Source: Chelonoidis abingdonii
Taxonomy: Eukaryota > Chordata > Testudines > Testudinidae
Assembly: GCF_003597395.2 (NCBI RefSeq)
Contig: NC_133770.1
Coordinates: 83,697,708 to 83,761,707, forward strand
Length of the DNA stretch: 64,000 bases
Direction: 5' to 3'
How positions within the stretch are numbered: the first letter of the stretch is position 1; each line of letters begins with the position of its first letter. The position numbers and the translations under genes are program-made. Below, in pieces: positions 10,256-52,676 of the stretch. The notes beneath the pieces are model-generated. The model was not told where the DNA came from, made no database searches, and worked only from the letters and a program-made list of their open reading frames with translations.

Positions 10256-10914
10256 TGACTCAAAAGCTGGAGAAACCTGCTGAGAGCATCAGCTGTGTTG
10301 CTCAAGCCAAGAATCAGAATTGCCAGTGCAGCAAGTTTTCTACTGCAGAGCATGCCAGGAGTGGGGGAAGGCCTGTTCTTGTAACACATTCTCTACCAAC
10401 AAATCTGTGACCTACTTTCCCTCCCCAAAGAATTATACAAAACTTCCTGATCCTCACATGCTCCTAGGGTTGATTTGGCCCTATGGAGTATTCTGAGGGG
10501 CAGCTGGGAATGTCAGGGCTTGTTATGAGGATCTGGAGGCTTAATACCTGGGAAGTGAGCAGGGGGTTGTCATAGGGTGTTTGGTAGATTTGGAAAGCTG
10601 GGAGGTGCAGGAACAAAGGATATCTTAGATGTGTGATTTGCATAGTGTTACATTAGTTTAGTAACTAAAAAGTTAATTACCTCAAATAATATATCATGGA
10701 TCCAAATGGCATCCACTTGAAATTTATATACAATTTTGTCTGCACAAGAGGAAGCATTTTCAGAGATATCTAGAATATGGTAACATAGCTTAGAAAAGAC
10801 AAGGGGGTTGAGCTAGTATGTTTAATAACCCCTGTTTAACAGAAGATGGTTTCAAAAACCAAAATGAAACATGTTTTCTAGAATTTCTAAAATTTAACAT
10901 ATGTATGCAAGGGA

Positions 10915-12210
10915 ATGGTCCCGCTATTGTGGGGAACTTTCCTGGCTTCTGCACTACCCCAGTGAAGTAGGCTAGTGGAAGGATCTGAGTCCTCACTCCC
11001 ACTTCCTTTACCCAGAGGCCTCCCTTCCCTTGAGGACTCCCCTTGCACTCTCCTATCTGGCAGAGTCCTTGTAACCCCAACAAGGCTGGGCCCAGGATTC
11101 CTGGAGGGCTCGACCTGCAACCTTCTGTGGTCACCTAGGTCAGGAGCTAGGCTGTCCCCACCCCAGGGTACTCTCTCTGCATTGGATGCTTTCCTGATCC
11201 ACTGATCATTACATATGATTTAAAGCAATACAGTTTATTTAATTAACAATTAGTTTAATAAGGAAAAATGGGAAAGGTTAAAGGAAACACATCACCCTGC
11301 TCTGTGGCAGGAAACATCACAGACAGTGTCTCTGAAATGTCAGGGCAGTTCACAGTCTGTTTCTTGTAGGTCCCAGGCCTCCTTCTCAGGACCTGGCTGT
11401 GCTGCAGGAATGCTGTGGCTTGGACACTTGCTCTGGCTGTGGTCACACGCTCTCAGGCTCTAGGTGGCAGGACCCTTCTCCCCAGTGTCACTCCTGCCCT
11501 ATCAGGGTTATGATCCCCCTCCAAGTCTGGCCTGCAGAGCCTCTTGGCTGAGGCATCTCCCTGTGCTGGGCCCACTGCCCAGGGTCCTCCTCGCTCTCTC
11601 CAGCTCCTCCCCTTACCCGGCTCCAGACTGCTCCACTCTGCCTCAGCCGGGCTGCTGCTGCTGCTCTGCCTCCAGCTTCCCGGGCTGCTTCTCTGGACCC
11701 TCTGGCTCTGGTTGCAACAGCTCTGCTCCCAGCACAGGTCAGCTCTCCAGGCTGCTTCTGTGACTCTGCTCCCAGAATCTGACCTGCTTCCTGGGCTGCT
11801 TTTCTGGCCCCTCTGGCTCTGGCTGCTGCAGCTCTGCTCCCAGGGCAGGTCTGCTCTACCTGGGCTGTGCTCTGGCTTTGGGACTGCAGCTCTCCTCCCA
11901 GCAGTTTAGCTTGGGCCCCCGCTCTCTCCTTAACTCAGCCCCACTCTGTCTGACCCAGGCAATTCCAGCTCATACGGAGGATCAGACCTCCCCCCCATGG
12001 CCTCCTGACTCCTGGATTAGCCTGCCCACCCTGTCAATCAGGCTGACCTGGAGCATTGGCCTTTCCCCATTGCCCCTGGGGACTGTCAGTCTCAGGGTCC
12101 TGATTTCCCATCAACCCTTCCCCTTTTGGTACTGGGAGCTAGCCAACCAAAACACCCCCACTGAATGTTAGTAGGGGGATAACAGTCCCCTTACACATAT
12201 TACAATCCTA
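10915..12210 (-). mobile_element. Solo LTR of an endogenous retroelement, antisense (approximate ends)
   Basis: Read on the minus strand this is a purine-rich upstream block, then an AATAAA signal (complement of 'tttatt' at 11,234-11,239) and a shorter downstream part, which is an LTR-like layout. I recognise the sequence as a high-copy turtle LTR. A CTG-rich segment and an internal tandem repeat (11,682-11,900) lie inside. No coding region for gag, pol or env is present, so it is solo or a fragment. Long frames here (for example 11,544-11,909) are composition effects. The TG/CA ends and the target duplication are uncertain. Confidence 0.5.
11682..11900. repeat. Two-unit tandem repeat, period about 111 bp
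   Basis: The block beginning 'gggctgctt' at 11,682 and again at 11,793 carries the same following sequence ('ctctggctctgg' then 'cagctctgctcccag'). This makes about two units inside the antisense LTR. A (CTG)n-like stretch precedes it at 11,650-11,667. Confidence 0.6.
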
Positions 12211-13367
12211 GTCTGAGGCAACTTCTCACCTACAGTGAGTTCTCAGAGTACACAACCCACAAGGTTGTGGGGATCCACCTTTCACATATTTCAAAAGCGC
12301 TGGCCTCTTTTGTTCCCTAAGAGATGGATAACAAAGGAGCCCCCTTTCTTCCCTTTTATATCCAGAAAACCTTTTAAATATATTCTTTGAAAAGTAACGC
12401 CAAACAAAGGTCTTCTCTCCTGCTGTTTGTTCTTTGGGGTGCAGGCACCAATCACCATCTTCATCCCCTGCTAAATTTGCTTTTTCAATATGCTTGATCA
12501 TGTTGTTTACTTTAGATGCAAATATAATTTAATTGTCCTTTGTTTGTAATCAAGCTATGCTGTTTTTCATCTGACTATTAGCCTGGTCTATGCAGACAGA
12601 TAAATCCACATTCCTTTGTCTGGGGCCAGTTAATTTCTCAGTTGTCTCCAAAACCTTTTCAGAACACATTTCCAGCACACCTACATAACTCTGTATACAC
12701 AACCTGTACGTATATTATGCAATGATATTAATGACCAGCACGCTACTAGTTTTCATATGATATCCAAACAGTGTCTTGTAAGGTAAGTATTCTGGCTACC
12801 GTAGGTTGAGTGTAGTGAGTTTGTCAGTCCTGCTGGGATTTACTGTGACATAACAGTGTGCCTTTTGCCATCTGGTGTAAAGAGGATCTTAGGTCACAGT
12901 CACCCTCTCCACTTTTTCTCATGAGCTTGCAACTCTCAGGGGAAGAAATAATGTGTAGAGTCAACATGACTGCAGTCTTTCCAGCCACAGTAACAGTGAT
13001 ACCCTGTACACAAAGAATACCTGTCTCTTTCAGCCAGCAGTACTTCCTCAAGGTATTCATGGGGCTTGCCCATGAGTGGAGGGGTGCCACCATTTTGGTG
13101 AGCTCACCCAAGAAATGCTACAGTGATGATCATGTGTAGGACTGTTGTCGCTGTAAGCAGTCTACCCTAGCAAATCCTGCAATGAGAGGGCTCTCTCACT
13201 GGAGGGCCGCTATCATTACATAGTGACAATGGACATTTCCCTTTGAAAAAAATGAAACAAACCAACATGGAAGCACATGTTTTGGGTTTTTTTAACAAAC
13301 AAAGGCTGTAGATGTAAAGGAACATCAGTGCATGGCCTTTGAACAACAAAATAGGCCATCTTAATAA
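12211..13367. other. Unassigned sequence, possibly retroelement-derived
   Basis: No gene is recognised. The sequence continues the AT-rich character seen upstream of the antisense LTR and may belong to the same element. Overlapping frames on both strands at 12,824-13,139 match no family I know. Confidence 0.4.
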
Positions 13368-13743
13368 TACCCTGTAATCTAATGGCTAGAACACCAGAAT
13401 GGGGCTCAGGAGATCTACAGCTACTGATCTGTGGGATGACTGGGGCAAGTCAAGTCCCTGCTCTTTGTCTCAGTTTCCCCATCTGTAAAATTATATTTCT
13501 TTCCTTTGTAAAGCACATTGAAACCTAGAACATAAGGATGGCCCTACTAGGTCAGACCAAGGGTCAATCTAGCCCAGTATCCTGCCTTCTGACAGTGGCC
13601 AGTGCCAGATGCCCCAGAAGGAATGAACAGAACAGGTAATCATCAAATGATCCATTCCGTAGCTCATTCCCAGCTTCTGGCAAATGGAGGCTAGGGACAC
13701 CTACTGGTGAAAAGTGGTATATAAGAGCTAGGTCTTATTATTT
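13368..13743 (+). repeat. MIR-type SINE split by a CR1 insertion
   Basis: The head ('ctaatggctagaacacc'), 'ggggcaagtcaagtccctg', and 'gtctcagtttccccatctgt' run to about 13,527. The tail 'ggtatataagagctaggt' resumes at about 13,704. Between them lies an antisense CR1 3' fragment. The SINE is therefore older than the CR1 insertion. Confidence 0.7.
13528..13698 (-). repeat. CR1 3' fragment nested in the SINE
   Basis: Antisense of a CR1 3' end: on the + strand 'gaacataaggatggcc', 'gtcagaccaagggtcaatct', 'ccagtgccagatgcccc', 'cattcccagcttctggcaa'. It is flanked by 'accta' on both sides (13,523-13,527 and 13,699-13,703), a plausible short target duplication. The same 3' end occurs in sense orientation at 62,841-62,992. 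Confidence 0.75.
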
Positions 13744-13765
13744 TAAATGAATACGGCATTCTATA

Positions 13766-14215
13766 TTGAGAACTGTGTTTGTTCTCTATCTCCTCTCACC
13801 CTCCTTTCACTTGGTATTTAGGTGTGTAGTATATAAATCTATCTCATTTCTGTTTCCCTCTTCCTTCTTCTTCAGTCACAGTCACAGAGTCTTCAACCTT
13901 CCACAACTCCAGTCAAGAAATGAAGCTGTAAAATCAGGTCATTGCAGTTTCACAATACAAAATACTGCAAGAATTTGTGGTATCTTGTACATGCTTTTGC
14001 TGGAAATACTACTGGTCTGTGCTGGAAAGCCCATAGGAAGAATGGTACATATGGCATATCTTGCCATTTGTATTCAGCACGAATCTTTGGAACAAATAGG
14101 AATCAGGTCTAATATACATCTCTTTAAATATTCATTAAAGGACTTTTCCTTTGGACCAACTGTTAGCAAAAATGGCATGAATTTTAAAGGACACTATCTG
14201 GTAGAGGAGGTTTAA
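13766..14215 (+). other. 149-codon open frame, probably not a gene
   Basis: This is among the longest clean open frames in the window (start 13,766, stop 14,213-14,215). The predicted protein is hydrophobic at its start and resembles nothing I recognise. A strong acceptor-like tract ends at 13,875, inside it. One other frame after that acceptor gives a 15-codon run to a stop at 13,921-13,923. The frame is broken in noisy copy B, but that copy is unreliable. I regard it as chance, with low confidence either way. Confidence 0.15.
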
Positions 14216-14467
14216 ATGTAACCAAATTTTATAATCTGGTTCAGAATATTTGCTATAGTTTAAATACCAAAAGGATTACTGGTTTTGATTTTAATTTTTA
14301 ACTCCCCACTCTATTCAGAAACCATCTGAAAACAGGTGCAGTTTATGTGCTTGTACATTTTTGCTATCATGTTGCAGAGAGAGAAGAAGTTAGCTAACTA
14401 ATACTTGTCTTAACACTGAATTAATGAAAATAATAGAATGACAAATTGAAAAGCCCAAATAGACAGT

Positions 14468-15112
14468 CTAGCTTGTAAACGCCTCAGGGCAGGGACCAGA
14501 TATACCTCTGTTTGCACAGTACTTAACGCAACAAGTAGGGCTGCCCGGGGGAGTGGGGGGGCAAGTAGGGCAATTTGCCCCAGGCCCCAGGCCCTGCAGG
14601 GGCCCCCACAAGAGTTTTTTGGGGCCCCTGGAGTGGGATCCTTCACTCGCTCCAGGGGCCCCGGAAAACTCTTGCAGGGCCCAGGCCCCCGGAGCTTCTT
14701 CCGCTCCGGGTCTTCGGCATCTGGGGGTCCCCCCACCGCCAAATTACCGCCGAAGTAAGACCCGCCACCAAAGAGCAGCCGGGCCTTCAGCAGTAATTTG
14801 GCGGCAGGAGGTCCTTCCGCTCCAGGACCCCCTGCCACCAAAGTGCCTCAAAGACCCAGGGTAGGGGCCCCCTACCACAGACCCAGGGGCAATTCAGTGG
14901 AGGGGAGCCCCGCCGCGGGTTTTCGGGGCACTTCAGCGGCAGGTCCCAGAGCGGAAGGACCCCCCGCCACTGAATTACCACCGAAGCAGGGGCCTCCCAG
15001 CTGCCGAGGACCCCAGGCCCCCAAATCCTCTGGGTGGCCCTGACAACAAGGCCCTGATTCTGACTGGGACCTTTGGGTACAATGTTATATGAATAATAAT
15101 TAATAATGAAAG
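14468..15112 (+). repeat. L2-like 3'-end repeat, interrupted
   Basis: The motif 'gtaaacgcctcagggcaggg' then 'ctctgtttgcacagtactta' leads to an insertion at 14,536. After the insertion 'gccctgattctgactggg' and an 'aataataattaataatg' tail follow. The same family occurs uninterrupted at 61,943-62,062. It resembles the 3' end of L2/CR1-group LINEs. I cannot assign the exact family. Confidence 0.5.
14536..15042. mobile_element. GC-rich non-autonomous hAT element
   Basis: Ends 'tagggctgccc' and 'gggtggccctg' are imperfect inverted repeats. Flanks 'gcaacaag' (14,528-14,535) and 'acaacaag' (15,043-15,050) agree at 7 of 8, a hAT-type target duplication. The interior is very GC-rich, with repeated 'ttaccgccgaag'-like blocks on both strands, and codes for no transposase. 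It is the same broad family as 51,099-51,322, 60,123-60,359 and 60,983-61,243. The 143-codon minus-strand frame here is a composition effect. Confidence 0.8.
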
Positions 15113-17289
15113 GTGCAGAATGATATCGTCTCTACCAAGAGGATGTATCAGATATAAAATTGCTGAGCACTACACATGATATAACTAAAAGCTGCCATAG
15201 TTACCACAATGCACAAACAAATATAAAAGCCATGGTAGTTTGTAATTCATATGAATCAGGGTGCTAAATTGTTGACTGATATTAGCTGTGAAGAGAGTTC
15301 CCTGTGTGTAGAGCCTTTCTTCCCATGGGAGAGAGAAGTTAGCTTCCTCCATTGCAGAACCCTACCCTCCATTCCAATTGCTGGAGAAAAGAGCCTCTTC
15401 CCTAATGTGGCCTGTAAAAAGCCAGCAGCATTAATCCATTCTAAGGCTGTATTAAGTCTTCTTTGACCTTAACTGTGCTGTAGGGGAAAACACCTTAAAG
15501 TGTGTTCCCGGGAGCAGGGCATTCCCTTACAGTATGGCTTCAATATTCAGTGAAGTCAACAGAGTTACTCTGGATTTTCACTGCTGTAACTGAGATCAGA
15601 ATAGGAACAATGTTTGCCAAATGGGACAGCAAAGAAAAGCTGGGAAAAAAGAGGTTCTCTCTCAGCTATATTTCCAAAAAATTAGAAGAAGGTGCCTTTA
15701 TATGCACACGCAGTGTTCCTGCATTAGACTTTTGTTTGTCTGAAGCTAGATTCAACACTCTTTTCAGGGTAAATTACATCTGAGAACCAACAAGGGTACA
15801 ATTAGGCTCAGAGGGCAAGGAGTCAAGAATGCTTGCTTAATTATACATCTGGTAATTAATTTGTATTTCTCACAAAAGGCATAAGGAGAATGTTAATTTT
15901 TGGACTACACAAGGTACTATTATGACACAGAGAATTCATGTTTGATATTCAAAAGTCTCCCTTGCACTCAGGGTTCAAGGTTTGCACGGATCTGAGCAGC
16001 TGGCTTTGTTTATCCAGCAATGGAATGTTAAAGGAAGTCCCTTGTTGCCAGAATGACAAACCCAATGGGAGGCGATTGTTTTACATTTCATAAGGCAACA
16101 GAAGCAAGTGTTAGATGTGAGTCTGCTTTCTGTACATCACAACAAAACCACGTATAACTCCCTGAGATGCTGGGCCCTGGCACTTTCAGAAACTTTTCTT
16201 GACTGATACCTTGCATGTTGGAGGGAGAGGAGGATTATCATTGAATCACAGATGCTGCAAGAAACAATTGCTAAGCATAGGGGAACTCAGCTGTTTATTT
16301 ACAGTTAACATTTTTCTGCCAACATTCCTTATCTGCTAGCACTCCTTATCTCCCCAGGGTTGTTCATGCAAGGGGACTGGAACAATTTGTATAGTGGGGG
16401 TGCTGAAAGCCATTGAACCAAACTGTAAACCCTGTATAGGATAGGAACCACTTCAAGCCAGGGGGTATGGCAGCATCCCTAGCTCTAGCACCCGTGTCCT
16501 CATGAGTATCCAGAGTAGGGTTTTCTACACCCTAAGCTCCCTTCATTGGACCTGGACTCTCCTGGATGATGCTTCCATGACACATCCATACAATACTCAC
16601 CAATAACACAAACTGAGGCTCTGATTCAGCAAAGCATTTAAGCATGGATTTCACTCAGAGACCACCATCCTAAACGTAAGCCTAGCCGTGACGATATTCA
16701 TGCTGCTTAAACACCTGTTTTGCAGATAAAGAGGAAAATCCATTCCCAGTATCTCCAGTGTGACCTGTCCTCAGGAGTTCCCAAGGAAATTGGAACCCAT
16801 GTACGCCTGAGAAGATGACCAGTGGATGGCTAATGGCGAACAAATGATGTTCTGTTACCTTTGTTCTCAGCTCCTTTGTCCAGTCACATTGCTGAACTCC
16901 TTGTCTGGCCACTCTTATTTTCTTATTTACAAAGACATCTTCCTTTAATTAGACTCTGCCCAGACTATCATCATGTTGTCTTACTAATTACACCAATCTA
17001 TCAAGGCTTTTATTCCACTGTGGTGCCTGAGAGAGAACAAAGGAAATGAGAGGGAGTGAGGGAACTGCCTGCAGGAGACTTACTGTCAGGAGCAGACTTG
17101 CTAAATGAGTGAACCAGACACACCTGGTGTGAGGAGGGAACCTCAAGCGGCTGGTTCCTCATAAGAAAGCTGAAGGAGTGTATGAGAGGGCTCACTCTGG
17201 GAAGTCTACAGGGAAGTCAGCACCGAGTAGGACAGATGAAAGCCAAACCCAAGGGTGCATCACTATCTCAAAGCAGCACCTTGGAATGT
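15113..17289. other. Unassigned sequence
   Basis: No gene recognised. Short fragments of palindromic dispersed repeats are present ('gattcagcaaagca' at about 16,623; a 'gagttactctggattttcac' block at about 15,562). The rest is plain AT-rich DNA. Confidence 0.45.
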
Positions 17290-18385
17290 TCATATTCACT
17301 ACTGTTGTAGAATTATATGTTTTGTACAAAGTATGCCTTGTGAGGTATCATTTTAAAAGTCTTGATCTGTTGAACATTAATATCCCATTGGATTGTATGT
17401 GCTATCGTATGTGAAGTTGTGATATGTGTGTGTTACTGAAACATGCTGTGAGGTTGGGAAGTAGCCTTTCAGGTACAACCATGAAGTAGCCAGATGCACT
17501 GATGGCCCATTAAAGGGAATCCACACTCCCAACAACCATCCCAGAAGACTTCTTGGAGACAGCACATAGATAATGGAGGCTGCTTGACTACTGGGGATGG
17601 ACTTCTCATGTCACAAGCATAGATCTTTCCAGCAAGCTGCAAGAAACTATAAAAGGGGGAAGTGATGACATGACTTGGCCTCACTCCCTTTACAACTCAA
17701 CACGTGGAAACACGCCTGGAGCACAAAGACTCTGAACTAAAGGATGGTGGTGCCAGGTTGGAAGTCAGTTCCAGCCTATGTATTGAAGATCTGTGACTTC
17801 TTTGTACCATCTATCAGTATGAGACACTGCTTGATTCAAATCCTGTTTTGTTTATAGAACTCAAGACTGCAAATTTACTTTTATTTCTTAGGTAACTAAC
17901 TTTGAGCTCTATGCTTACTACTTATAAACACTTAAAATCTATCTTTCTGTAGTTAATAAATCTGTTTATATTTTACCTAAAATGGTGTGTGACTAAAGTT
18001 TTACCTAAAACAGAAGTGCTTGGGAAATCTCAGCTCAGTTTACACAGGCTAGTGTGTGTTTTCTCTACATCAAGGGAGGGGCAGACTGGGTAATGAACTT
18101 ATACTGGTTAGGCTTCTGACCAGGGCAGGACAGTAGAGCTCTGGGGTACAAGGCTCAGGAGCTTGGGGCAATTGGCTGGAGCCTCTCTATTATTGGTTCA
18201 TGACTGGGGAAAGCATTCATGGAACTCAGCTGGGTGTGTCGCTGCCTGTGGACATCTGTGCAAGTGCAGCACCTGCCAGAGGTTTATAGCTTGCCAACAG
18301 CATCAACGTGTGAGAGGCAGCCTGGGTTGGTGGGACAGAGGGTTGAGCGGTCGCATAATCCAGGTTGCACCCGGGAACCCTGTCA
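17290..18385 (+). mobile_element. LTR of an endogenous retroelement, sense (approximate ends)
   Basis: The stretch begins near 'tgttgtagaatt' and ends near 'ccctgtcaca', TG and CA boundaries. It has a TATA box (17,648-17,654, followed by a G run) and an AATAAA signal (17,955-17,960) about 300 bases later, a normal LTR promoter and polyadenylation layout. I recognise it as a dispersed turtle LTR. No internal genes are attached in this window, so it is probably a solo LTR. A clear target duplication was not found. Confidence 0.5.
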
Positions 18386-19214
18386 CAGTCACCCTTAAAA
18401 ATTCATACAGAAAGAACTCTATGAAGAAACCCTTTTGCTCATGCGAGCTCTGAGGTAAGAGCCAGGCCTTTGGACAAATCTTTGGGACTTTGAGTTTCAC
18501 TTATGAGTTATGTCTGAATAAACCCAGACCCCAGTAAGCATGGTGATTGGATGAGCAACTGTGTGGAGTCTCTGTAAAAAGGCCTGGAATAGGGAGAATA
18601 AAAGGTGGGCACTACAGAGACACCCCTGCCAAGAGAGGGCACATGGGGACAGCCAACTTGTTTCTAATACTTAAATTGGGAGGGCTTCCTTTCCTGTTTC
18701 TAGGCATGTATTAATCACTGCCTAACCCATTACTCCAACCCCTTGAGTACTTACATCATGTCACTACCTTCCTGATAGATTTAAGACATGCATCCTGTAA
18801 GTATCTCACTCAGCACTTAGATCAGGAGCATTAGTGACTGCCCCAGGCCAGATCTTTATGATTCTTTGAGAGACACATAGAGGACAAGTTTCAGGAACCT
18901 CACAAATTGCTGTTAAAATTAGCAATTTCTCAGGAGACACATTTTCCATGAGAATTTTGGACCAGCTTCTCCAAACTGGGGCTGTTTGGATGGATAGACA
19001 GATATCCTCCATGGTGTCTCCTTTTCTACCTTTTAGTGGGAGGCTCCTGCCAAGAAAGTGGGAAGGTCCACGTTCCTTACTAAAGTGCTATTACTACTTA
19101 CATTTTCCCAAGCTGATCCATACAATATGCCCTCCTAACCATTCATTTGCTGCCGGTCTACAAAACAATAGTGTTTTTTCATTGTAAAAGAGAAGAATAG
19201 ACAGGCCTTTAACT
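18386..19214. other. Unassigned sequence
   Basis: Apart from the candidate exon, nothing is recognised. An AATAAA-like 'gaataaacccag' lies at about 18,515. Confidence 0.4.
18411..18454 (+). CDS. Candidate small internal exon
   Basis: A 44-base interval lies between an acceptor-like 'aaaattcatacag' and a strong donor (GAG followed by 'gtaaga'). Only one of three frames is open; it reads KELYEETLLLMRAL and starts in phase 0, leaving two bases. I do not recognise the protein. The interval sits just downstream of an LTR, so it could instead be retroelement sequence. It is not phase-compatible with the candidate exon at 39,511, so if both are real another exon must lie between, possibly in the badly assembled part. 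Pseudo-exons like this are common by chance. Confidence 0.2.
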
Positions 19215-22200
19215 AGAGCCGATCGGGAGAAGAGAAGGGTGTGCTGTCTGCCCAGTGCTAAGATACAGGATGTGGACCTGAGGCTGAAAAGGATCCTAGC
19301 GGGAGCGGGAAAGAATCCATTGATTGTCCTTCATGTGGGAACAAGTGATAAAGCTAGATACTCGCTGGACTGTATCAAGGGAGACTATGCCAGATTGGGG
19401 AAGACGCTTAAGGAAATCGAGGCTCAGGTGATCTTCAGTGGGATTCTGCCAATTCCTAGAGAAGGGCGACAAAGGTGTGACAAGATTATGGCTTGGGTGG
19501 ATACAGCTGGTCCTGGTGTTTATTAACTGTTTAATTTATTAAATTTGAATCAGAAATTTCCTCTATTATATCTCAACTTGGCCATTCAGATTTGTCGCCT
19601 AAAAAAAAATGGCTCCGAGTATGGGAACCGCTTCACATCCTCCTTGGCAGAGATAAGAGAGAATTCATTTAGCTTCTCTGCAATGGCCTTGTCTTCCTGA
19701 GTGCTCATTTAAGCATCTTGATTGTCCGTGGCCCCACTAACTGTTTGCAGACTTCCGTTCCTGAGGTACTTAAAAAAAATTGCTCTTATTCTTGTGTACT
19801 TCACTAGTTGCTTTGCAAATTCTTTCTGGCCTGCCCTTATTTACTTTTACAGACTGACTTCTGAGTTTATTTTATTCTAATTACAGGAGAGTACAATTTT
19901 TAAAAGGACTTTAATTGCCACTAACAACGGTTTACTCTGCTTGTTTACCGAAGATAGGGTGTCATATTTTTGGTCCTCATTTCCTCTCTCTTCTATATAT
20001 TAATAATAAATAACTGTGTTGGTGTAACTTACATTTGAGCCTCTTTTATGTGTTTTTATACTGTTAGCTGCACAGCATTTAACCTTGTGAGTATTCCGCG
20101 AGTTCATTCCAATGAACGGGGCAGAGTATATCATATTCACTCTAGTTCCACCCTTTTTTAGTTAAATGTTATTGTGGTAGGTGTCTTGCCATTTTACCCC
20201 TTAAAGAATGTTAAATTTAATTTCATTAAGCCTACTATTAGTCAAGAAAACGGGGTTCAGCTAGTAGTCACATACTGTTACACGCCGGTGGACCCCAGAT
20301 CCTCGTGTGTGTTACTTAAGTCAAGGAAAATTTAGACACTCAAGGGAGATCAGATCCTCTTAGGTTGGGTATTACAGGAAACTGAAGATCCACTAACAGC
20401 ATAGGGTAATGAATGATCTAGAAATTTCTCCTCTGAATCCGCTCATTCACATGAGGAATAGTTGATTCTCCCATTATTATTGCAATTTCTTGGCGTGGAT
20501 CATCTCATAATCTCTTCTGAAGCATTCCACAATAACAGTCACTCCGTTGTTGAGTACAGTTGCAATAGAATATGTCAGTGGAAGCCAACCCAAATTTTCC
20601 ACAGAGCTATAATGTCTGTACATAACTTTCATTGTTCGAGGAGTCCTAGGTAACAAGAGTGGTGGAAATTTCTATTGCAAAGGAAAACATGAGCCTAGAG
20701 CTACACACTTGGGGCATATCGGAATAGATAGGATATTTATCCGACTTAAATATTTAAGTACTTAATGCGGGGTCTGATATCACATTTGGTGCCACACTGA
20801 CACCCATACCATGGGGACCTGGGATACTCGATCATGTGATAGTTCATTATTTTGCACACTGGTATTACTACCTCTTGTCCGGTTATTCCGATACCAAGTT
20901 TCTGTGCAGGGCCTGATGATAATTCAAATACCTTCTCTGATTAATGGCCTCAGATTACCTGCAGTGTACAAGCGCGCATGCTTAAGTATAGCTATATTTG
21001 TCATACTATCAGATGAGGGCAAGAGGCCATATTGTGGATGTAAGACGGGTGTAGTAGAGGTAGGATGAGGACACTGTATAGATCCACCAAGTAGAACACT
21101 GAGAGGAGATAGTCCAAGTATGAAGCGGTAGAGGAGACATGGTCAAGTATTGGAAGAGAGAAGTGGATGGAACATGGAGTGCACAAAGATCAGAGCAGGT
21201 GGGTAGTTTCTGTTCTTAGAAGAGGCGAGAGAAGAATAAAAAATATCAATGTCACTTTGATACTGGTGGGGGGAGAGAAAGAGCAGAAAAGAGTGAGGAG
21301 GTTAGAAGAGGGTAAAGAAGAGGGGATAGAGAATAGGAGCCATTAACATCAAAGGAGATGGAGTCCCTACTGCGGCGAATTCATATAAGAGAGATAAGCA
21401 GATGAGAAACGTCTGTAGTGCTCTTAAGGAAAGACGAAGGAGTGTGGGTGTGCAAGTCGAGATACCACGCAAGCGGAAGTCGAGAAGGAAGATTATATGA
21501 ATTTGGTCATTATGATTCACTTTGGGCACACTGTACCTTCTCTTTGAATAGATTGCAAGATCCGTCAGAAAAAGTGGAAGCGCGAGAGGTTGAAGGAATA
21601 ACTCAGAAGCTGCAAAATGGAATCATCGAGACTGAGAGAAGATAGACACTAAGTGAGGGATAGAGTGTAATAACCATTAAAAATGGGCTTTCTGGTTGCA
21701 CAGATCGGTGTCGGCCCGAGATATCACGCCACTGCTAAAAGGGATGCTCGCAGCACACCACCCGTGACTTGCTAAGAATGACATCCTACGGAGGAGAATC
21801 TACAGCGACCCTCAACACCCAAGCTGAGTTTCGGGTTCTGGATGGACAAACTAATAAATAGAACAGGAGGACGGAGGTCACGGGAGTCAGAAGGGTCATA
21901 AGAAGGGAGCCTGACTGGGGACACCGAGCAGTAGAACCCTGGACAGTTGTCCACTCCTCAAAGGCGTTAAAGTCAGCGAGTGTAGTGGGCTGGTTACTGC
22001 TACTGGCCACTCCACAGGGGTTAAGGTCCAGCCTGGAAGATGTGAAGAAACCATCAAGAGTATGGGGAAGGCCTGTAGAATGGGAAAAATCCACCAGATT
22101 ATGGAAAGCAGGCACATGAATGGAGCCATGACCTTCCTAATGAGCATGATGTCTATTCTAGGGAGTCCTATGAGAAAAGGGGCTACTAGCTTAGCACTAG

Positions 22201-25200: not shown

Positions 25201-25504
25201 TTTATGGAAGGGATGGTATGAAGGAATAGTTTAATTTTGGCAATGGATCTGGATTATCACAGATAAGTCTGCTCAATGGTCTGTGATGGGGTTGTGATGG
25301 GAATGGGAACTGAGTTACTGCAGAGAATCTTTCTGACTGGGCTGGTGGTGAGTCTTACCCACATGCTCAGGGTTTAGCTGATTGCCATAATTTGGGGTCG
25401 GAAGGAATTTTCCTCCAGGGCAGATTAGGGAGGCCCTGGAAGTTTTTGCCTTCTCTGCCAGCGTTGGGGCATGGGTAACCACTTGCTGTGGACTATCTGC
25501 AGCG
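19215..25504 (+). mobile_element. Long CR1 LINE copy, mostly unpolished sequence
   Basis: CR1 is a non-LTR retrotransposon whose ORF2 encodes an apurinic-type endonuclease and a reverse transcriptase. The 5' part (19,215-19,495) matches CR1 cleanly. Sequence at 22,530-23,130 reads as the ORF2 stretch between endonuclease and reverse transcriptase. Degraded reverse transcriptase blocks follow, including one around 24,128-24,145 at the place of the FADD catalytic motif. The ORF2 C-terminus lies at 24,745-25,215 and the 3' UTR at 25,270-25,504. Between these anchors the sequence looks nearly random, CpG-rich and full of frameshifts. 19,495-22,500 is longer than the matching part of copy B (34,745-35,910), so it may contain wrongly stitched read sequence. 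No intact ORF should be inferred. Confidence 0.7.
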
Positions 25505-25529
25505 NNNNNNNNNNNNNNNNNNNNNNNNN
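25505..25529. other. Assembly gap, 25 N
   Basis: A run of exactly 25 N. The CR1 3' UTR breaks off just before it, at 'ctgcagcg', and noisy copy B begins straight after. The next CR1 bases expected after this break are found at 36,553. Confidence 0.95.
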
Positions 25530-28500
25530 TGACTCAAAAGCTGAGAAACACTGCTAGAGAGATAAGCTGTGTTGCTCAACGCCAGAATCAGAATTGCCAT
25601 GCAGCAAGTTTTTCTAACTGCAGAGGGAGCAAGGCGCAGATAAGAAAGGCCCATGGATGGGGGCAGGCCTGTTCTTGTAAACATTCTCGACGAAGCAATC
25701 TGTGATACTTTCCTCCCAAAAATTTATCAAACTTCCTGATCCGATTGCTCCTAGGGTTGATTTGGCCCATGAGTATGTCTGAAGGAGGCAGCTGGGAAGT
25801 GTAGGGCTGTGTTAATGAGGATCTGGGGAGGCTTAAATACCTGGGTGAGCAGGGGGTTGTCATAGGGTGTTTGGTAGACTGTTGGAAGCTGGGAGGTGCA
25901 GACACAAAGGATATGCTTAGATGTGTGATTTGCATAGTGTTCAATAGTTTAGTAAAATAAAAGTTAATTACCTTCAAATTATATCATGGGATCCAAATGG
26001 CTCCACTGAAATTATAATACAATTTGTCTGCACAAGAGGAAAGCATTTTCATAGATATCTAGAATATGGTAACATAGCTTAGAAAACGACAAGGGGTTGA
26101 GCTAGTATTTTAATACCCTGTAACAGAAGATGGTTTCAAAAAGCCAAATGAACATTTTTCTAGAATTCTTAAAATTAACATTGTATGCAAGGGAATGGTC
26201 CCGCTATTGGTGGGGAACTTCCTGCTTCTGCACTACCCCCGTGAAGTAGGCTAGTGGAAGGATCTGATCCTCACCCCACTTCTTTACCCAGAGGCCTCCC
26301 TTAACCTTGAGGACTCCCTGCAACTCTCCGATCTGGCAGAGTCCTTGTAACCAAACAAGGCTGGCCGGATTCTGAGGGCTCGACCTGCAACTCTGGGTCA
26401 ACCTAGGTCAGAGCTAGGCTGTCCCACCGCCAGGGTAACTCTTCTGCTTGGATGCTTTCCTGACCCTGATCATACATATGATTTTAAAGCAATACGGTTA
26501 TTTAATTAACAATTCAGTTTAATAAGGAAAAATGGAAAGGTTAAAGGAACACATCACCGCCGCTCTGTGGCAGGAAACATCACAGACAGTGTCTCTGAAA
26601 ATGTAGGGCAGTTCACAGTCTGTTTCTTGTAGGTCCCGGCCAGGCGCTCCCTTCTCAGGACTGGCTCTGTGCTGCAGAATGCTGTTGGCTTGGACACTTG
26701 CTCTGGTGTGGTCAACGCTCTCAGGCTCTAGGTGAGGACCTTCTCCCAGTGTCATCCTGCCCTACCAGGGTTATGATCCTCCAAGTCTGGCTGCAGAAGG
26801 CTCTTGGCTGAAGGCGTCCTCTGTGCTGGGCCACTGCCCAGTCTCCTGCTCTCTCCAGCTACCTCCCTTACCCGGCTCCAGACTGCTCACTCTGCTCAGC
26901 GGGCCTGCTGCTGCTGGCTCTGCTCAGCTTCCTGGGCTGTTCTCTGGACCTCTGGTCTGGTTTGCAACAGCTCTGCTACCAGCAAGGTAGCTCTCCAGCT
27001 GCTTCTTGTGACTCTGCTCCCAAATCTGACAGCTGCTTCCTGGGCTGCTTTTCTTGCCCCTCTGGCTCTGGCTGCGCAGCTCTGCTCCAGGGCAGGTCTG
27101 CTCTACCTGGGCTGTGCTCTGGCCTTTGGGAACTGCAGCTCTCCTCCCAGCCGTTTAGCTGGGCCCCGCTTCTCTTAACTCAGCCCACTCTGCTCTGACC
27201 CAGGCAACTTCCAGCTCATACGGAGGATCAGACCTCCCCGATGGCTCCTGACTCTGGATTAGCCTGCCGCCACCCTGTCAATCAGGCTGAACCTGGAGGC
27301 TTGGCCTTTCCCAGCCCTGGGGACTGTCAGCTCAGGGTCCTGATTTCCCATCAACCTTTCCCCTTTTGGTACTGGAGTAGCCAACCAAAACACCCACTGA
27401 ATGTTGTAGGCGGGATAACAGTCCCCTACACATATTTACAATCCTAGTCTGAGGAACTTCTCAACCTAAGTGAGTTCTCAGAGTAAACAACCCACAAGGT
27501 TGTGGGGATCCACCTTTCACATATTTAAAAGCGCTGGCCTTTGTTCTAAGAGATGGAGACAAAGGAGCCCTTTCTTCCCTTTTATATCCATGAAAACCTT
27601 TTAAATATATTCTTTGAAAAGTAACAGGCCAACAAGAGGTCTTTCTCTCTGCTGTTTGTTCTTTGGGGTGCAGGCACAATCAACATCTTCATCCTGCTAA
27701 ATTGCTTTTTCAATTGCTTGATCATGTTGTTTACTTAGAATGCCAAATATAATTTAATTGTCCTTTTGTTTGTAATCAAGCTATGCTGTTTTTTCATCTG
27801 ACTATTTAGCCTGTCTATGCAGCAGAAAATCCACATTCACCTTTGTCTGGGGCCAGTTTAATTTCCAGTGTCTCCAAAACTTTTCAGAACACATTTCCAG
27901 CACACCTACATAACTCTGTATACACAACCTGTACGTATTTATCAATGATATTAATGACAGCAACGCTACTCATTTTCATATGATATCAGAACAGTGTCTT
28001 GTAAGGTAGTATTCTGGCTACCGTAGGTTTGAGTTAGTGGTGTCAGTCTGCTGGGGATTACTAGTGCATACAGTGGTGCTTTTGCCATCTGTGTAAGAGG
28101 ATCTAGGTCAAGTCACCTTCTCACTTTTTCTCATGGCTTGCAACACAGGGGAAGAAATAATTGTGTAGAGCAACATGACTGCAGTCTTTTCCTTCCATGC
28201 CACAGTAACAGTGATACCTGTAACAAAGATACCTGTTCTTTAGCCAGCAGTATTCCTCAAAGGTATTCAGGGGCTTGCCCTGAGAGGCGGTGGCACATTT
28301 TGGTGAGCTCACCCAAGAAATCTACAGTGATGGGATCATGTGTTAGGACTGTTTGGTCGCTGTAAGCAGTCTAACCCTAGCAAAATCTCAATGAGAGGGC
28401 TCTTCACTGGAGGGCCGCTATCATTAATAGTGAAATGGACATTTCCTTTGAAAAAATGAACAAACAACTGGGAAGCACATGTTTTGGGTTTTTTTAACAA

Positions 28501-31500
28501 ACAAAAGCGTAGTGAAGAACATCAGTGCATCGGCCTTTGAACAACAAAATAGGCATCTTAATAATACCCTGTAATCTATGGCTAGAACACCCAAGAAGGG
28601 GCTCAGGAGATTACAGCTCTGATCGTGGGATGACTGGGGCAGTCAGTCCCTGCTCTTTGTCTCAGTTCCCCATCTGTTAAAATTATATTTCTTCCTTTGT
28701 AGCCTTGAAACTAGAACATAAGGATGGCCCTACTAGGCTCAACAAGGGTCAATCTAGCCAGTATCCGCTTCTGACAGTGGCCAGTGCCAGATCCCCAAAG
28801 GAAGAACAGCACAGGGTTTTAATCATCAAATGATCCATTCCGTAGCTCATTCCCAGCTCTGGCAATGGAGGCTAGGGACACCTACTGGTGAAAGTGGTAT
28901 ATAGAGCTAGGTCTTTATTATTTTTAAATGAATACGGCATTTGCAATATTGAGAACTGTGGTTGTTCTCATATCATCCTCTCCCCTCCTTTATTGGTATT
29001 TAGGTGTGTAGTATATAAATCTATCTCATTTCTGTTTCCCTCTTCTTCTTTCAGATCACAGTCACAGAGTCTTCAACCTTCCACATGAACTCCGTCAAGC
29101 AATGAAGCTGTAAAATCAGGTCATTGCAGTTTCCAACAATCAAAATACTGCAAGATTTGTGGTAAATCTTTCTGTTTGCTGGAAATACTACTGCGGTGCT
29201 GGAAAGCCCATAGGAAGAATGGTACACTACATATGGCATAATCTGGCCATTTGTATTCAGACACCGAATCTTTTGGATACAAAATAGGAATCAGGTCTAT
29301 ATACCATCTCTTTAAATATTCATTAAGGACTTTTCCTTTGACAACTGTTAGCAAGTAAATGGCATGAATTTTAAAGGACACTATCTGGTAGAGGAGGTTA
29401 AATGTAACCAAATTTTTATAATCTGGTTCAGAATATTTGCATGTTTTAAATACCAAAGGATTACTGTTTGTGTATTTTAAAATTTTAAAACTCCCCACTC
29501 TATTAGAACCATCTGAAACCGGTGCAGTTTATGTGCTGTAGCATTTTGCTATCCCATGGTGCAGGAGAGAGAGAAGTTAGCTTAACTAATATTGGCTTAC
29601 ACTGATTAATGAAAAATTCAATTAGAATGACAAATTGAAAAGCCAAAAGAACAGTCTGCATTGTAAACGCCTTCAGGGCAGGGACCAATACTACCTCTGT
29701 TTGGCCACAGTAACTTAACGCAACAAGTAGGGCTGCCCGGGGAGGGGGGGGCAAGTAGGGCAATTGCCCCAGGCCCAGGCCTGCAGGGGCCCCCACAAGA
29801 AGTTTTTTTTGGGGCCGCCTGGAGTGGATCCTTCACTCCTCCAGGGCCCGGAAAACTATCTGACAGGCCCAGGCCGCCCGGAGCTTCTTCCGCTCCGGGT
29901 CTCGCATCTGGGGTCCCCCACCGCCAATACCGCGAAGTTAAACCGCCACCAGAGCAGCCGGCTTCCGCATAATATTGGGCGCAAGGAGGTCCTTCCCTCC
30001 CGGACCCCTGCCACCAAAGTGCCTAAAGACACGGGTAAAGGGTCCCCCTACCAAGACCAGGGCAATTCAAGTGGAGGGAGCCCGCGGGTTTTCGGGGCCT
30101 TCAGCGCAGGTCAGAGCGGAAGGACGCCCCCCACTGAATTACACCGAAGCAGGGGCCTCCCAGCCTGCCGAGGACGCCCAGGCCCCAAATCCTCTGGGTG
30201 GCCCTGACACAAGGCCCTGATTCTGAATGGGGACTTGGGTCAATGTTATATTGAATAATAATTAAATAATGAAAGGTGCAGAATGATATCGTCTCTACAA
30301 GAGGATGTTATCAGTATAAAATTGGCTGAGGCACTAAGCACATGATTAACTAAAAGCTGCCCTAGTTACCGACAGATGCACAAACAACTTACAAAGCATG
30401 GTAGTTTGTATTCATATGAATCAGGGTGCGAAATTGGTTGACTGAATTGCTGTGAAGAAGAGTTTCTTGTGGTGAGAGCTTTCTTCCATGGAGAGAGAAG
30501 TTAGCTTCCATTGCGACATACCTCGAGTCATTGCTGAGAGAAACAGCCTCTCCTAATGTGGCCTGTAAGCACAGATAATCCATTCTACAGGCGGTATTAA
30601 GTCTTTTGACTTAACTGTGCTGTAGGGGAAAACACCTTAAAGTTGTGTTCCGGAGCAGGGCAATTCCATTACAGTATGGCTTCAATATCAGTGGTAACAG
30701 AGTTACTCTGATTTTTCACTGCTGTAACTGAGATCAGAATAGGACAAATGTTTTGCCAAATTGGGACAGCAAAGAAAAGCTGGGAAAAAGAGGTTCTGTT
30801 CACTATATTTCCAAAAATTAGAAGAAGCTGCCTTTATATGCACCGCAGTGTTCCTGCATTAGACTTTTGTTTGTCCTGAAGCTAGATCAACATCTTTTCA
30901 GGGTCCAATTACATCTGAGAACCAACAGGGTAAATTCAGGCTCCGAGGGCAGGAGTTCAAGATTATCTTGCTTAATTATACATCTGGTATTAATTTGTAT
31001 TTTCACAAAGGCATAAGGAGAATGTTATTTTGGACTAACAAGGTACTATATGAACAGACGAATTCATGTTTGATATTCAAAAGTCTCCTTCACTCAGGGG
31101 TTCAAGGTTTGCACCGATCTGAGCAGCTGCTTTGTTTTATCCCAGCAAATGGAATGTTTAAGGAAGTCCTTGTTCCAGAATGCAAACCCAATGGGAGGCG
31201 ATGTTTTACATTCATAAGGCAACAGAAGCAGTGTTAGATGTGAGTCTGCTTTCTGTACATCAACAACTACGTATACCTTAGATGCTGGGTCCTGGCTTTC
31301 AGAAACTTTTCTTGACTGATACCTTGCATGTTGAGGGAGGAGGATGTACATTGATCACATAGATGCTGCAGACATTGCTAAGCAGGGGGAACTCAGCTGT
31401 TTATTTACAGTTAACTTTTTCTGCCAACATTCCTATTCGCTAGCACTCTATCTCCCCAGGGTGTTCATCGGCAAGGGACTGGAACAATTTTGATAGTGGG

Positions 31501-34500
31501 GGGTGCTGAAAGCCATTGAACCAATGTAAACCCTTTATAGGATAGGAACATTAACCAGGGGGCTATGGCAGCATCCTGCTTAACAACAGCCACGCTGGGT
31601 TGTCGCTTATGAGAGTGCAGCACACAGCTACCAGAGTAGGGTTTTCTAAACACCCTACAAGCTCCCTCATTGGACCTGGACTCTCCTGGATGAATGCTTC
31701 AGACCATCCATAAAACTAACAAATAACACAAACTGAAGGCTCTGATCAGCAAAGCATTTAAGCATGGATTTTCACTCAGGACACCTCCTAAACGTAAGCC
31801 TAGCCGTGACGATATCATCGCGGCTAAACGCCTGTTTTGCAGATAAAGAGAAAAATCCATTCCCAGTATCTCCAGTGTGGACCTTGTCCTCAAGGAGTTC
31901 CAGGAATTGGAACCATGTACGCTGAGAAAAGATGAACGTGGAATGGCTTAATGGCGAAAATGATGTTCGTTACTTTGTTCTCAGAAAGTCGTTTGTCCAG
32001 TCACATGCTGAACTCCTTAAGGATTATATCTGTATCGTTATTGATACAAAGACTCTTCCTTAATTAGACTCTGGCCCACAGACTATCATCATGTTGTCTT
32101 ACTAATTACACAATCTATCAAGGCTTATCCACTGTGGTGCCTGAGAGAGAACAAAAAAATGAAGAGGGAGTGGGGAACTGCTGAGGAAACTTCCTGTCAG
32201 GAGCAGACTGGCTAAATGAGTGAACCAGTACACACCTGGTGTGAGGAGGAACCTCAAGCGTGTCTCATAGCAGCTGAAGGAGTGTATGAGAGGGCTCACT
32301 CTGGGAAGTCTAAGGAAGCTCAGCAACCGAGTAGCGACAGATGAGAAGCCAAACCAAGGTGCATCACTATCTAAACGCAGACACCTTGGATATGTTCATA
32401 TTCACGACTGGTTGTAGATTATCTGTTTTGTACAAAGTATGCCTTGTGAGGTATCATTTTAAAAGTCTTGAATCTGTATGAACATTAATATCCCATTGGA
32501 ATTGTATGTGCTATCGTATGTGGAAGTGTGATATCGTTGTGTGTTACTGAACATGCTGGTGAGTTGGGAAGTAGCTTTCAGGTACAACCATGAGTAGCCA
32601 GAATGCACTGATGGTCATTAAGGAGCACTCCCAACAACATCCAGAAGACTTCTGGAGACAGCACATAGATAAGGAGGCTGCTTGACTACTGGGATGGACT
32701 TCTCATGTCAAAGCAAGTCTTTCAGCAAGCTGCTAAGAAACTATAAAAGGGGGAAGTGGATGACATGACTTGGCCTCACTCCCTATCAACTCAACACGTG
32801 GAAACACGCCTGAGCACAAAGACTCTGAATAAGGATGTGGTGAAAGGTTGGAAGTCAGTTTTTCCAGCTATTATTTAGAATGACTACTGTGATCGCGTGA
32901 TGTAGAGAGACATAAGTAGATAGGACAGCCTGGATTACTATCTGTGATGTAGAAATTGTGATAACTGATCATGCACATGAATATTAACTTTAATTGTACT
33001 AGGAGCTTAACGTTTAGACGAGCTTATGCTATATTTACTGGTTTCTGGAGAGACGCACTATCACTGATGTATGTTTAGAGAAGCGTTGGATTGTTCTGGA
33101 GGTTGGACCTAGAATGTGCGACGATGAGATAGTGCTAAGATGAGCGTAATCAGTAGAGAAGGCTGTCGCATCGTCGGCCACTAGGAAATCTAGGAGATGT
33201 ATGTGAGAAGCTATACGGAGGCATATCTTATAGCAGAAGACGGGACGCAGAAACAAGGCGTATACACAGCTGTAACTGAGGTTAGTTCTGAGACCAGCGG
33301 CACTGGGGATCGAATCATGATGCTAAGATCGAGAAACTGAGGGGGTCAAACAGACGGCAGAGTGGCGCCAAGTGAACATTACTCTCTGGGGGACAATCTA
33401 GCCGTTGTGTAGGCTGCATCTATGTATGTAGCTCGACTTAGAGTCAGAGCACAGACAGACGTATTCTCGAGGAGACAGAAGAGAGCGCTGGGTGGGAGGT
33501 GATGCACTCTGTGGTACATCTGGCAAATGAGAGGCAACTTTCCCTGTGTGTGTCTGACGCTAGCTTATCAAAGAATAATCGTCACGGTGGTAGAGCGAGC
33601 CTGTTGAGTGGCGACCAAGCAGAGACGTCTGAGCGGAGTTTGTAATCCAGGTTGCACCGAAACCTGTCCACAGTCACTTTTCATCAAGAAAGAACTTATG
33701 AAGAAACCTTTTGCTCATGCGAGCTCTGAGGTAAGAGCCAGGCCTTGGACAATCTTTGGGACTTTGAGTTTCACTTATGAGTTATGTCTGAATAAACCCA
33801 GACAGTAAGCATGGGTGATTGACTGAGCAACTGTGTTGGATCTCTGTAAAAGGCCTGGAAATAGGAGAATAAAGGTGGGCCATAAGAGACACCCCTGCCA
33901 AGAGGGCCACATGGGGAAAGCAACTGTTTCTAATACTTAAATTGGGAAGGGCCTTCTTTTCCTGTTTCTAGCATGTATTAATCACTGCTAACCCATTACT
34001 CCAACAACCTTGATACTTACTCATGTCACTACCTTCCTGATAGATTTAAAGAACATGCATCTGGTAAGTATCTCACTCAGCCACTGATCAGGAGCATTAG
34101 TGACTGCCTAGGCCAGATCTTTATGATTCTTTGAGAGACACATGAGGAAAGTTTTCGGACCTCACAAATTGCTGTAAAATAGCATTTCTCAGGAGACACA
34201 TTTTCATGAGAATTTGGACAGCTTCTCCAAACTGGGGCTGTTTGGGATGGATAGACAGATATCCTCCATGGTGTCTCCTTTTCTACCTTTTGTGGGAGGC
34301 TCCTGCAAGAAAGTGGGAGGTCCAAGTCCTTACCTAAAGTGCTATTACTACTTACATTTTCAAGCTGATCATAGCAATATGCCTCCTAACAATTCATTTT
34401 GCTGCCGATCTACCAAAAGCAATAGTGTTTTTTTATTGTAAAGAGAAGAATAGACAGGCCTTCTACTAGAGCCGATGGAGAAACGAAAGGGTGTGCTGTC

Positions 34501-36552
34501 CCTGCCCAGTGTAAGATACAGCTGTGGACCTGAGAGCTGAAAAGGACCTAGCGGGAGCGGGAAAGAAAATCCATTGATTGTCCTTAGCATGTGGGAACAA
34601 GTGATAAGCTAGATACTCGCTGGACTGTATCAAGGGAGATATGCCAGATTGGGGAAGACGCTTAGGAAAATCGAGGCTCAGCCGTGATCTTCACTGGATG
34701 TACCTGCAATTCCTAGAGAAGGGCGACAAAGGTGTGAAAGATTAATCTGGCGATCCAACAGATGCTCAGGCAGTGTGCTATAATGGAGGGTTTGGATGTA
34801 CCGGTCACTTGGGAAGATTACGACAGAAGACTGTTTCTCTCGGATGGACTTCACCTGAGTAAGGAGGGGAATAGACTCTAGGATGTGAGGCGTCGCTCCA
34901 CAGCCGATTAACGAGAGCGTTTAACTGAGCAATCTGAGGGGAGTGGTTGGAGATGTCCCAGGAGACTCATCCCGCGTAATTTAACACTTGAGAGGGAAGA
35001 GTAATCAATAGTAAGGGTAGGATACCAGCCGTGGCGCGAAGAATTGACATAAGGAGAGAAGTAGTTACATTACCAGATACAGTGGTAGAATGTCTGTGCA
35101 TTAAGCAGGGAAAGAAGGTCAGTGAAGCCAAAACGCCAAGAATTAAAATGTCGCTGTACACTAATGCTGAGTATCTAGGTAACAAAATGGAGGAATGGCT
35201 ACTGTGCAGGAAGTTGAAACCGGATATTTAAGGATAACAGAAACATGTGGAATAGTAGTCTCACTGAGTAGCAGGTATTGAAGGCTCATGTGCTGTTTTA
35301 GGAAGACAAATAAAGGCAAAGTGTGGAGTAGCTGTACATCATGATGAGGTTAATGTAAATGAAATGATAGAGTGATGGAATGGACAAGGACAGAGGTCTG
35401 TCTGGGCAAAATCACAGTGGAAAGAAAGCTACTACGAGCTCCCCTGAGATTAGTGCTGGGGGTGTGCTTTCAGACCGCTGGTCTGATCTTGGATCTGTCC
35501 ACGACGACCTCTTCAATGTTTTTCATGAAGTAAACACTAAGGATGAAATGTTGATCATGGGAGGACTTCCAACTTCCAGATATAGACGTGGAGGACAAGT
35601 CTTGCAAGAATAGATAGGGGCTCAGATTGTTTCTGGATATGTGATACGAGTGGATGTTCTTCACCAGTTAGCCGTTGAAAACCTCAAAGAAGGGATGCTC
35701 ATTTAGATTTTTTGGTGAGCCAGTGAGGACTCTCGTAGAAGAAAGGTTGTAGGGACAACCTTGGTTCGAGTATGATCATGATCGTAATTTCGCATGTCCA
35801 GAAGCTAGATGGAAGGATATAACAAAAAAAGATTGGGAATTAGGGTTTTTTGACTTCTCAATGGCTACTTAAAGAGTACGGAATTAATTAGGGAAGTGAA
35901 TTGGCTGAAAACCTGTGGATCTAAATGTGGAGAAGGCCTGGATTACTTTAAGTTGCAGCTGCAGAAACTATCAGAAAGCCTGCATCCCGAGAAAGGGGAA
36001 AAAACATAGGCAAGAGTTGTAGACCAAGCGGGATGAGCAAGCATCTCAGAGAAGTGATTAAGAAAAAGCAGAAAGCCTACAAGGAGTGGAAGAAAGGTGG
36101 GATTCGCAAGAGAAGCTACCTTAGTGAGGTCAGAACATGTAGGGATAAAGTGAGGAAGGCTAAAAGCATGTAGATGTTGGACGCTTGCAAGGGAATTAAA
36201 ACCAATAGTAAAAGGTTCTATAGCCAATAAATAAGAAAGAAAACAAAGAAAAGAAGAAGTGGGACTGCTATAACACTGAGGATGGAATGGAGGTTAAGGA
36301 TAACCTAGGCATGGCCCAATATCTAAATAAGTACTTTGCCTCAGTCTTTAATAAGGCTAATGAGGAGCTTAGGGATGATGGAAGGATGATAACGGGATGA
36401 GGATATGGAGGTGGATTTACCACATCTGAGGTGGAAGCCAAACTTGAACAGCTTAATGGAAAAATCGGAGGGCCCAGACAATCTCCATCCAAGAATATTA
36501 AAGAACTGGCGCATGAAATTGCAAGTCCATTAGCAAGAATTTTTAATGAAAG
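25530..36552. repeat. Noisy copy B of the duplicated unit, probable false duplication
   Basis: 25,530-34,745 follows copy A (10,256-19,495) element by element: antisense LTR at about 26,185-27,440, SINE with nested CR1 at about 28,560-28,920, L2-like repeat with hAT element at about 29,660-30,260, sense LTR from about 32,400, and the CR1 5' end at about 34,470. Differences are mainly single-base losses and gains, many in homopolymers. 32,880-33,630 cannot be aligned by eye. After 34,745 it continues as CR1 endonuclease sequence to 36,540 and meets clean sequence at 36,553. Open frames here are fragments and should not be annotated as genes. Confidence 0.85.
34470..36552 (+). mobile_element. 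CR1 5' half and endonuclease region within copy B
   Basis: The sequence runs from the CR1 5' region (34,470) through the ORF2 endonuclease: an N-terminal block at about 35,150-35,235 (an 'LYTNA' start, then 'KPDI'), and a central block at about 35,470-35,600 with the 'DLFNVFHEVN' and 'LIMGG' strings. It then reaches the linker before the reverse transcriptase, near-identical to 22,530-23,130. The reverse transcriptase is absent: the sequence jumps straight to the 3' UTR at 36,553. I read this as the same physical CR1 as 19,215-25,504, seen in a second read. Confidence 0.7.
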
Positions 36553-36716
36553 TCTCTGCAGCTTGAGGTCTTCAAACCACAATTTGAAGACTTCAATAAC
36601 TCAGACATAGGTTAGGGGTTGTTATAGAAGTGGATGGGTAGGGTTCTGTGGCCTGCTTTGTGCAGGAGGTCAGAATAGATGATCATATTGGTCCCTTCTG
36701 ACCTATGAGTCTATAA
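36553..36716 (+). repeat. CR1 3' terminus, start of the right-hand clean contig
   Basis: This begins 'ctgcagcttgaggtcttcaa' and runs to the CR1 end, 'cttctgacctatgagtctat'. It is the direct continuation of the CR1 3' UTR that stops at 25,504. Confidence 0.85.
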
Positions 36717-52662: not shown

Positions 52663-52676
52663 CTTCTAGGACACAG

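Follow-up and report, generated by a model that had tools for sequence, protein, structure and literature searches.

Organization of the locus and of the duplicated 9-kb unit

The window analyzed here is a stretch of 64,000 nucleotides (C2:83,697,708-83,761,707), which was compared with itself and searched against the assembly (2.256 Gb, 3,849 contigs). Features are given on the forward strand unless indicated otherwise. The window contains a unit of about 9 kb twice. In agreement with the original prediction, self-comparison places copy A at 10,256-19,488 and copy B at 25,530-34,744, collinear and in the same orientation, 15.3 kb apart. Copy A, which extends to 19,490 as the clean end of the left contig, is the sole clean copy found, and copy B is a repeat of raw-read quality. 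As also predicted, copy B starts right after a run of 25 Ns (25,505-25,529), so that its first base is the base directly following the Ns. Between copy A and this N run lies a first fill (19,492-25,504), and copy B is followed by further noisy sequence up to the clean start of the right contig near 36,550. Tandem Repeats Finder gave just two short rows for 10,256-36,552, and a tandem array was rejected as an explanation of this region.

The divergence between the copies is dominated by small indels. Over the first 7.5 kb (10,256-17,796 vs 25,530-32,892) the alignment contains 6,940 matches, 90 mismatches and 672 indel events, of which 564 involve a single base; B lacks bases in 433 events (511 bases) and has extra bases in 239 (333 bases). 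Only 22 of the 90 mismatches are transitions, and isolated substitutions number 37 vs 2,625 isolated matching positions, 30 of the 37 being transversions. The adjoining segment (17,797-18,228 vs 32,893-33,486) is nearly unreadable in B, with an alignment score of 38 vs -61 (s.d. 15) for 50 shuffles. Natural divergence would be expected to consist mainly of substitutions, many of them transitions, and an indel-rich pattern is typical of long-read error.

The copy carrying the errors can be identified from a repeat within the unit (10,911-12,195) that has many copies in the genome (46 matches listed). Eight loci of this repeat were extracted, among them the window itself, and the other seven served as references. 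Relative to these paralogues, 33-46 indel events are counted in A, compared with 125-139 in B and with 103 between the two copies. The excess in B is found for all seven paralogues, indicating that most of the indels that separate the copies are those of B. Two 2.2-kb probes from the unit (12,200-14,400 and 15,500-17,700) had full-length matches solely at A (100% identity) and B (89 and 87%, respectively); the other listed matches, among 40 candidates scored per probe, were repeat pieces only, and no other clean locus as a source of B was found with these two probes.

A real, recent tandem duplication of which the second copy was sequenced by raw long reads only would, if very recent and left unpolished, look much alike in a single assembly. 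Such a duplicate should, however, differ by substitutions divided between the copies, and what is found are indels outnumbering mismatches (672 vs 90) and borne by B. The few isolated substitutions, with their high share of transversions, fit read error rather than a real duplicate, and B moreover begins at an N run and continues beyond the point where the left contig ends, into repeat sequence that belongs there. Given the error spectrum, the polarity against the paralogues and the single locus detected by the probes, we reject a real duplication as extremely improbable. The duplication is almost certainly an assembly artefact, absent from the animal, and not a biological feature. The indel-dominated noise borne by B and the single clean locus thus support the original prediction of an artefact at an overfilled gap. 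Its description of copy A as clean holds up to ~19,490, and does not extend to 19,492-22,242 and 22,512-25,503, both of which are noisy.

A probable single CR1 element across the gap

The gap lies in a high-copy element that we take, as in the original prediction, to be CR1. The element is collinear with a high-copy family with a shared 3' end and 5' truncation, as expected for CR1. Positions in it are numbered along one genomic copy, L022. The last 301 clean bases of copy A (19,190-19,490; positions 1,200-1,502) are the start of a 5'-truncated CR1: in each of the 11 copies compared, the match begins at 19,190 or 19,191 and ends at 19,490, and in five of five pairs the CR1 copies are still alike further 5' of the truncation point.

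On the other side of the gap, the right contig starts with a clean CR1 3' end (36,547-36,714), the exact start lying between ~36,547 and 36,553. Nine copies match here at 90-98%: in eight of them the match begins no later than 36,553 and extends at least to 36,712, and in the ninth it reaches 36,651 only. This is the same kind of element, in the same orientation, as the CR1 of the left contig. With the left contig ending at CR1 position 1,502 and the right one beginning at ~4,950, about 3.45 kb of CR1 would be expected in the gap, a size that is inferred from other CR1 copies, vs ~17 kb in the assembly. Alignment to CR1 copies also agrees with the original prediction in that the 3' sequence of CR1 breaks off at 25,504 and is taken up again at ~36,553.

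Two further features are absent from that prediction. Firstly, copy B passes into an uninterrupted CR1 body (34,745-36,550) that is matched near full length by many genomic copies. Its noisy part (34,745-36,546) runs from position 1,502 to ~3,306, the final 650 bp overlapping with the other fill. It differs by 139-174 indel events from each of 19 CR1 copies (one covering 1,645 bp only), compared with 22-47 between CR1 copies in nine neighbouring pairs. Secondly, there is another shared segment in the window, 22,512-23,141 vs 35,897-36,525, where the two fills overlap over ~640 bp at 95.5% identity. The first fill is noisy CR1 from position 2,642 (22,512) up to the edge of the right contig (25,504).

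In this overlap, the two fills share 11 substitutions relative to the majority of 19 CR1 copies (effectively perhaps 18, as L037 and L038 may be one sequence), counted without gapped and weak-majority sites. Ten of these occur in none of the 19 copies and one in two of them; private substitutions number one in the first fill and three in the B-side fill. At the level of sequence, the shared substitutions show that both fills derive from one and the same CR1 copy.

The noise is unevenly distributed along the element. Per 200 CR1 bases, the B-side fill has 18-27 indel events relative to L022 at positions 1,200-2,600 and 4-11 at 2,600-3,300; the first fill has 5-7 at 2,642-3,200, then 37-61 as far as 4,600, with 15 in the bin that starts there. 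For six other CR1 copies the values are 0-9. Both fills are thus least noisy where they overlap, which would fit mutual correction of the two. In a genome search the noisy middle of the first fill (23,142-24,312) had no match but itself. Aligned to the CR1 stretch expected at this point it nevertheless scores 166, whereas 50 shuffles give -163 (s.d. 17). Nine control alignments, made with four other CR1 stretches, each taken in either orientation, and with the reverse complement of the query itself, score between -152 and -212.

Among the CR1 copies, L037 (C53:166,001-170,792) and L038 (C8:31,180,314-31,185,105) have identical indel counts, and C5:65,506,312-65,507,873 and C2:222,535,866-222,537,427 are likewise CR1 places with identical counts or scores. 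Such pairs could possibly represent further duplicated sequence in the assembly.

A piece matching chromosome C6 in the first fill

The first 2.75 kb of the first fill (19,492-22,242) has a single long match outside the window, at C6:100,012,255-100,014,504 on the minus strand of C6; the remaining matches of this query are confined to a repeat near its start. The alignment contains 2,062 matches and 62 mismatches, with 283 insertion events (627 bases) and 90 deletion events (126 bases), so that the piece is, judging from this spectrum, an insertion-rich, raw-read-like copy of the C6 sequence. In view of this match we reject that 19,492-25,504 is genuine sequence of the left contig with insertions nested in CR1; the match implies that the left side is wrong from ~19,491.

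The C6-like piece is connected to the noisy CR1 by a junction stretch of ~269 bp (22,243-22,511). A query covering it (22,200-22,511) matched only itself in the genome. In global alignments the stretch is weakly similar both to CR1 (z 11) and to the C6 sequence that comes next (z 5.5), and its end may be very noisy CR1, at about positions 2,500-2,641.

The original prediction took 1-25,504 to be correct and followed directly by 36,553 onward, with copy B as a right-hand extension that doubles back over the left contig, and with some 11 kb of sequence being spurious. In favour of this order, the 3' part of CR1 that breaks off at 25,504 is continued at 36,553. Against it, the clean left contig ends at ~19,490, the sequence beyond is a noisy match to C6 and then, at 22,512-25,503, noisy CR1. 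Nor is the CR1 of the B-side fill connected with the right contig, as the former stops at ~3,306 and the latter starts at ~4,950. We therefore regard the predicted order as very improbable, and find copy B easier to understand as an extension of the left contig put down on the wrong side of the Ns than as one that runs back from the right.

We considered that the C6 sequence was recruited through a CR1 adjoining the C6 site, which is not supported by the 10 kb around that site. In this region only diverged CR1 pieces were seen; the three longest kinds of match stand at 64-65%, and there are short ones besides. The long pieces are oriented the opposite way, and 18,000-25,504 matches the 10-kb C6 piece solely at 19,492-22,242. 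No feature accounting for the recruitment was seen in the 10 kb examined. With recruitment through CR1 unsupported, a chimeric read or a mis-join remains as the origin of the C6 sequence. The rate of isolated substitutions in the C6 piece (10 vs 409 matches) is not clearly different from that between A and B (41 vs 3,094; Fisher p 0.12). The misplaced piece could accordingly stem from the C6 site or from a close relative.

At the clean C6 site itself (C6:100,007,001-100,017,000), the sequence adjoins diverged CR1 remains, and the matching end coincides with the common edge of many short repeat matches.

Proposed exchange of the fills and comparison with known gap-filling errors

As assembled, CR1 is broken at 19,490, where the left contig meets the first fill, and ~1.64 kb of CR1 is skipped where the B-side fill meets the right contig. 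If the two fills trade places, the left contig is continued by B, and an overlap of ~8 bases joins the first fill to the right contig. As the exchange restores the continuity of CR1 at both joins, we infer from this one locus that the fills stand on the wrong sides of the Ns. The order and orientation of the two contigs themselves within one CR1 look right, with the fills at fault.

Our data are consistent with the following model, to which we assign a probability of roughly two in three: an overfilled gap inside one CR1, with the fills on exchanged sides. The left contig (ending at ~19,490) and the right contig (starting at ~36,547-36,553) would flank one gap in a single 5'-truncated CR1, to which a gap filler added two long-read sequences of raw quality, left unmerged with 25 Ns between them. 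One of them (25,530-36,546) would have its start inside the left contig, 9.2 kb before that contig ends, and enter CR1 up to ~3,306; the other (19,492-25,504) would span CR1 from ~2,642 until it meets the right contig, and would carry the C6-matching tail. The two extensions would then have been set on the wrong sides of the Ns, the 9.2-kb anchor of B being left untrimmed, and the C6 tail may have made the true overlap of ~640 bp look inconsistent, so that the 25 Ns stayed. PBJelly marks overfilled gaps by 25 Ns, and the program was presumably PBJelly or a similar one. The animal would accordingly have one copy of 10,256-19,490 and ~3.45 kb of CR1 in place of the ~17 kb.

Some observations count against this model. 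It does not explain the untrimmed 9.2-kb anchor in B, and the error spectra of the fills are opposite: B has more bases lost than gained (511 vs 333), the C6 piece more gained than lost (627 vs 126). In addition, a real internal deletion in CR1 on one haplotype could explain the join between B and the right contig. In that case, no sides would have been exchanged: B would be an extension of the right contig from a haplotype with ~1.64 kb missing from CR1, and 19,492-25,504 a chimeric extension of the left contig. An allelic deletion within CR1 would be unremarkable, and wrong placement of the fills would become unnecessary. It requires, however, two exact coincidences, of the end of the deletion with the clean start of the right contig and of the C6 junction with the point where the clean left contig stops. 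The part absent from B is, in addition, held by the first fill, which comes from the same CR1 copy. We consider this explanation unlikely, though it deserves to be kept in mind.

The window contains a second run of 25 Ns (52,812-52,836), which allows a comparison. To its left, the sequence matches another genomic copy of the repeat present there (L057) without gaps over 138 bp at 96.4%. Past the Ns, a noisy fill (52,837-55,614) continues the repeat cut at 52,811, resuming ~30 repeat bases on, with an identity to L057 that is 75% near the Ns and increases to 86% with distance from them. This second gap was filled on the correct side, and exchange is therefore not general: both 25-N runs in the window adjoin raw-quality fill, and the sides appear exchanged at one of the two. 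The presence of such fill at both runs also argues against an error from another assembly step, such as the merging of two assemblies; duplicated regions have been reported from merging too (PMC9635638), and here we deem this origin highly improbable. As the fill at 52,837-55,614 is of raw-read quality, reading frames or ages derived from it would mislead.

The repeat cut by the second N run (52,674-55,758) has inverted ends. In three neighbouring pieces (30 kb) no further 25-N run was present, and one run of 277 Ns was. A gap of 205 Ns at 50,355-50,559 has its left edge in a CR1 3' end that is inverted relative to 36,574-36,714; raw-quality fill was not seen after this gap, the first 479 query bases matching other copies at 94-97%.

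Whatever the exact route, analyses of segmental duplication, copy number or transposon nesting would meet a false 9-kb tandem duplicate at this locus, and the assembly also offers a false mosaic of transposons and a false link between C2 and C6. Comparison of a fill with clean copies of the repeat shows which flank it continues; for this the assembly alone suffices, and in a gap-filled genome each short N run could be examined in this way. We can only speculate that pasting on swapped sides is a distinct error mode of gap fillers besides ordinary overfilling, recurring through the assembly at gaps interrupted by repeats, which at present seems doubtful. If true, it would yield false tandem duplications of kilobases and interchromosomal chimeras, detectable from repeat continuity alone, without reads. 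In a narrow literature search no title on exchanged fill sides was found, which is not a claim of absence.

Overfilled gaps, an error of a known kind, were defined in the PBJelly paper as gaps in which the extensions of both flanks enter the gap and exceed its size without an identified overlap (English et al., 2012; PMC3504050). The present locus is similar in that a short N run of fixed length is flanked on either side by fill with the quality of raw long reads, and in that the insert (~17 kb) exceeds the ~3.45 kb that a collinear CR1 would need, the latter being the probable true size. In contrast to that definition, the two fills have an identifiable overlap of ~640 bp, one of them contains 9.2 kb of flank, and the other has a tail that matches another chromosome. 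Also, the sides look exchanged here, and no exchange of sides is described in the part of the PBJelly paper that concerns overfilled gaps (PMC3504050). For PBJelly fills, the DENTIST paper gives mean identities of 88.6-95.2% in three species in simulated tests, and ~89% for human (PMC8848313), similar to the noise observed here.

In the bald notothen, 28,377 overfilled gaps were reported, with a raised genome size and duplicated BUSCO genes, and the same overfilling was suspected in the assembly of a snapping turtle (PMC9635638). One snapping turtle draft was gap filled with PBJelly using PacBio reads that had been corrected beforehand (PMC7718744), which agrees poorly with the ~9 indel events per 100 bases at our locus. 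Overfilled gaps are also mentioned for a bird-of-paradise (PMC7757076) and in a cichlid paper (PMC4580222). Where the notothen case points to misjoined scaffolds (PMC9635638), the contigs at our locus look right and the fills wrong. As in a real segmental duplication there are two collinear copies in one orientation; unlike in such a duplication, the noise is dominated by indels and one-sided, and the second copy starts exactly at the N run.
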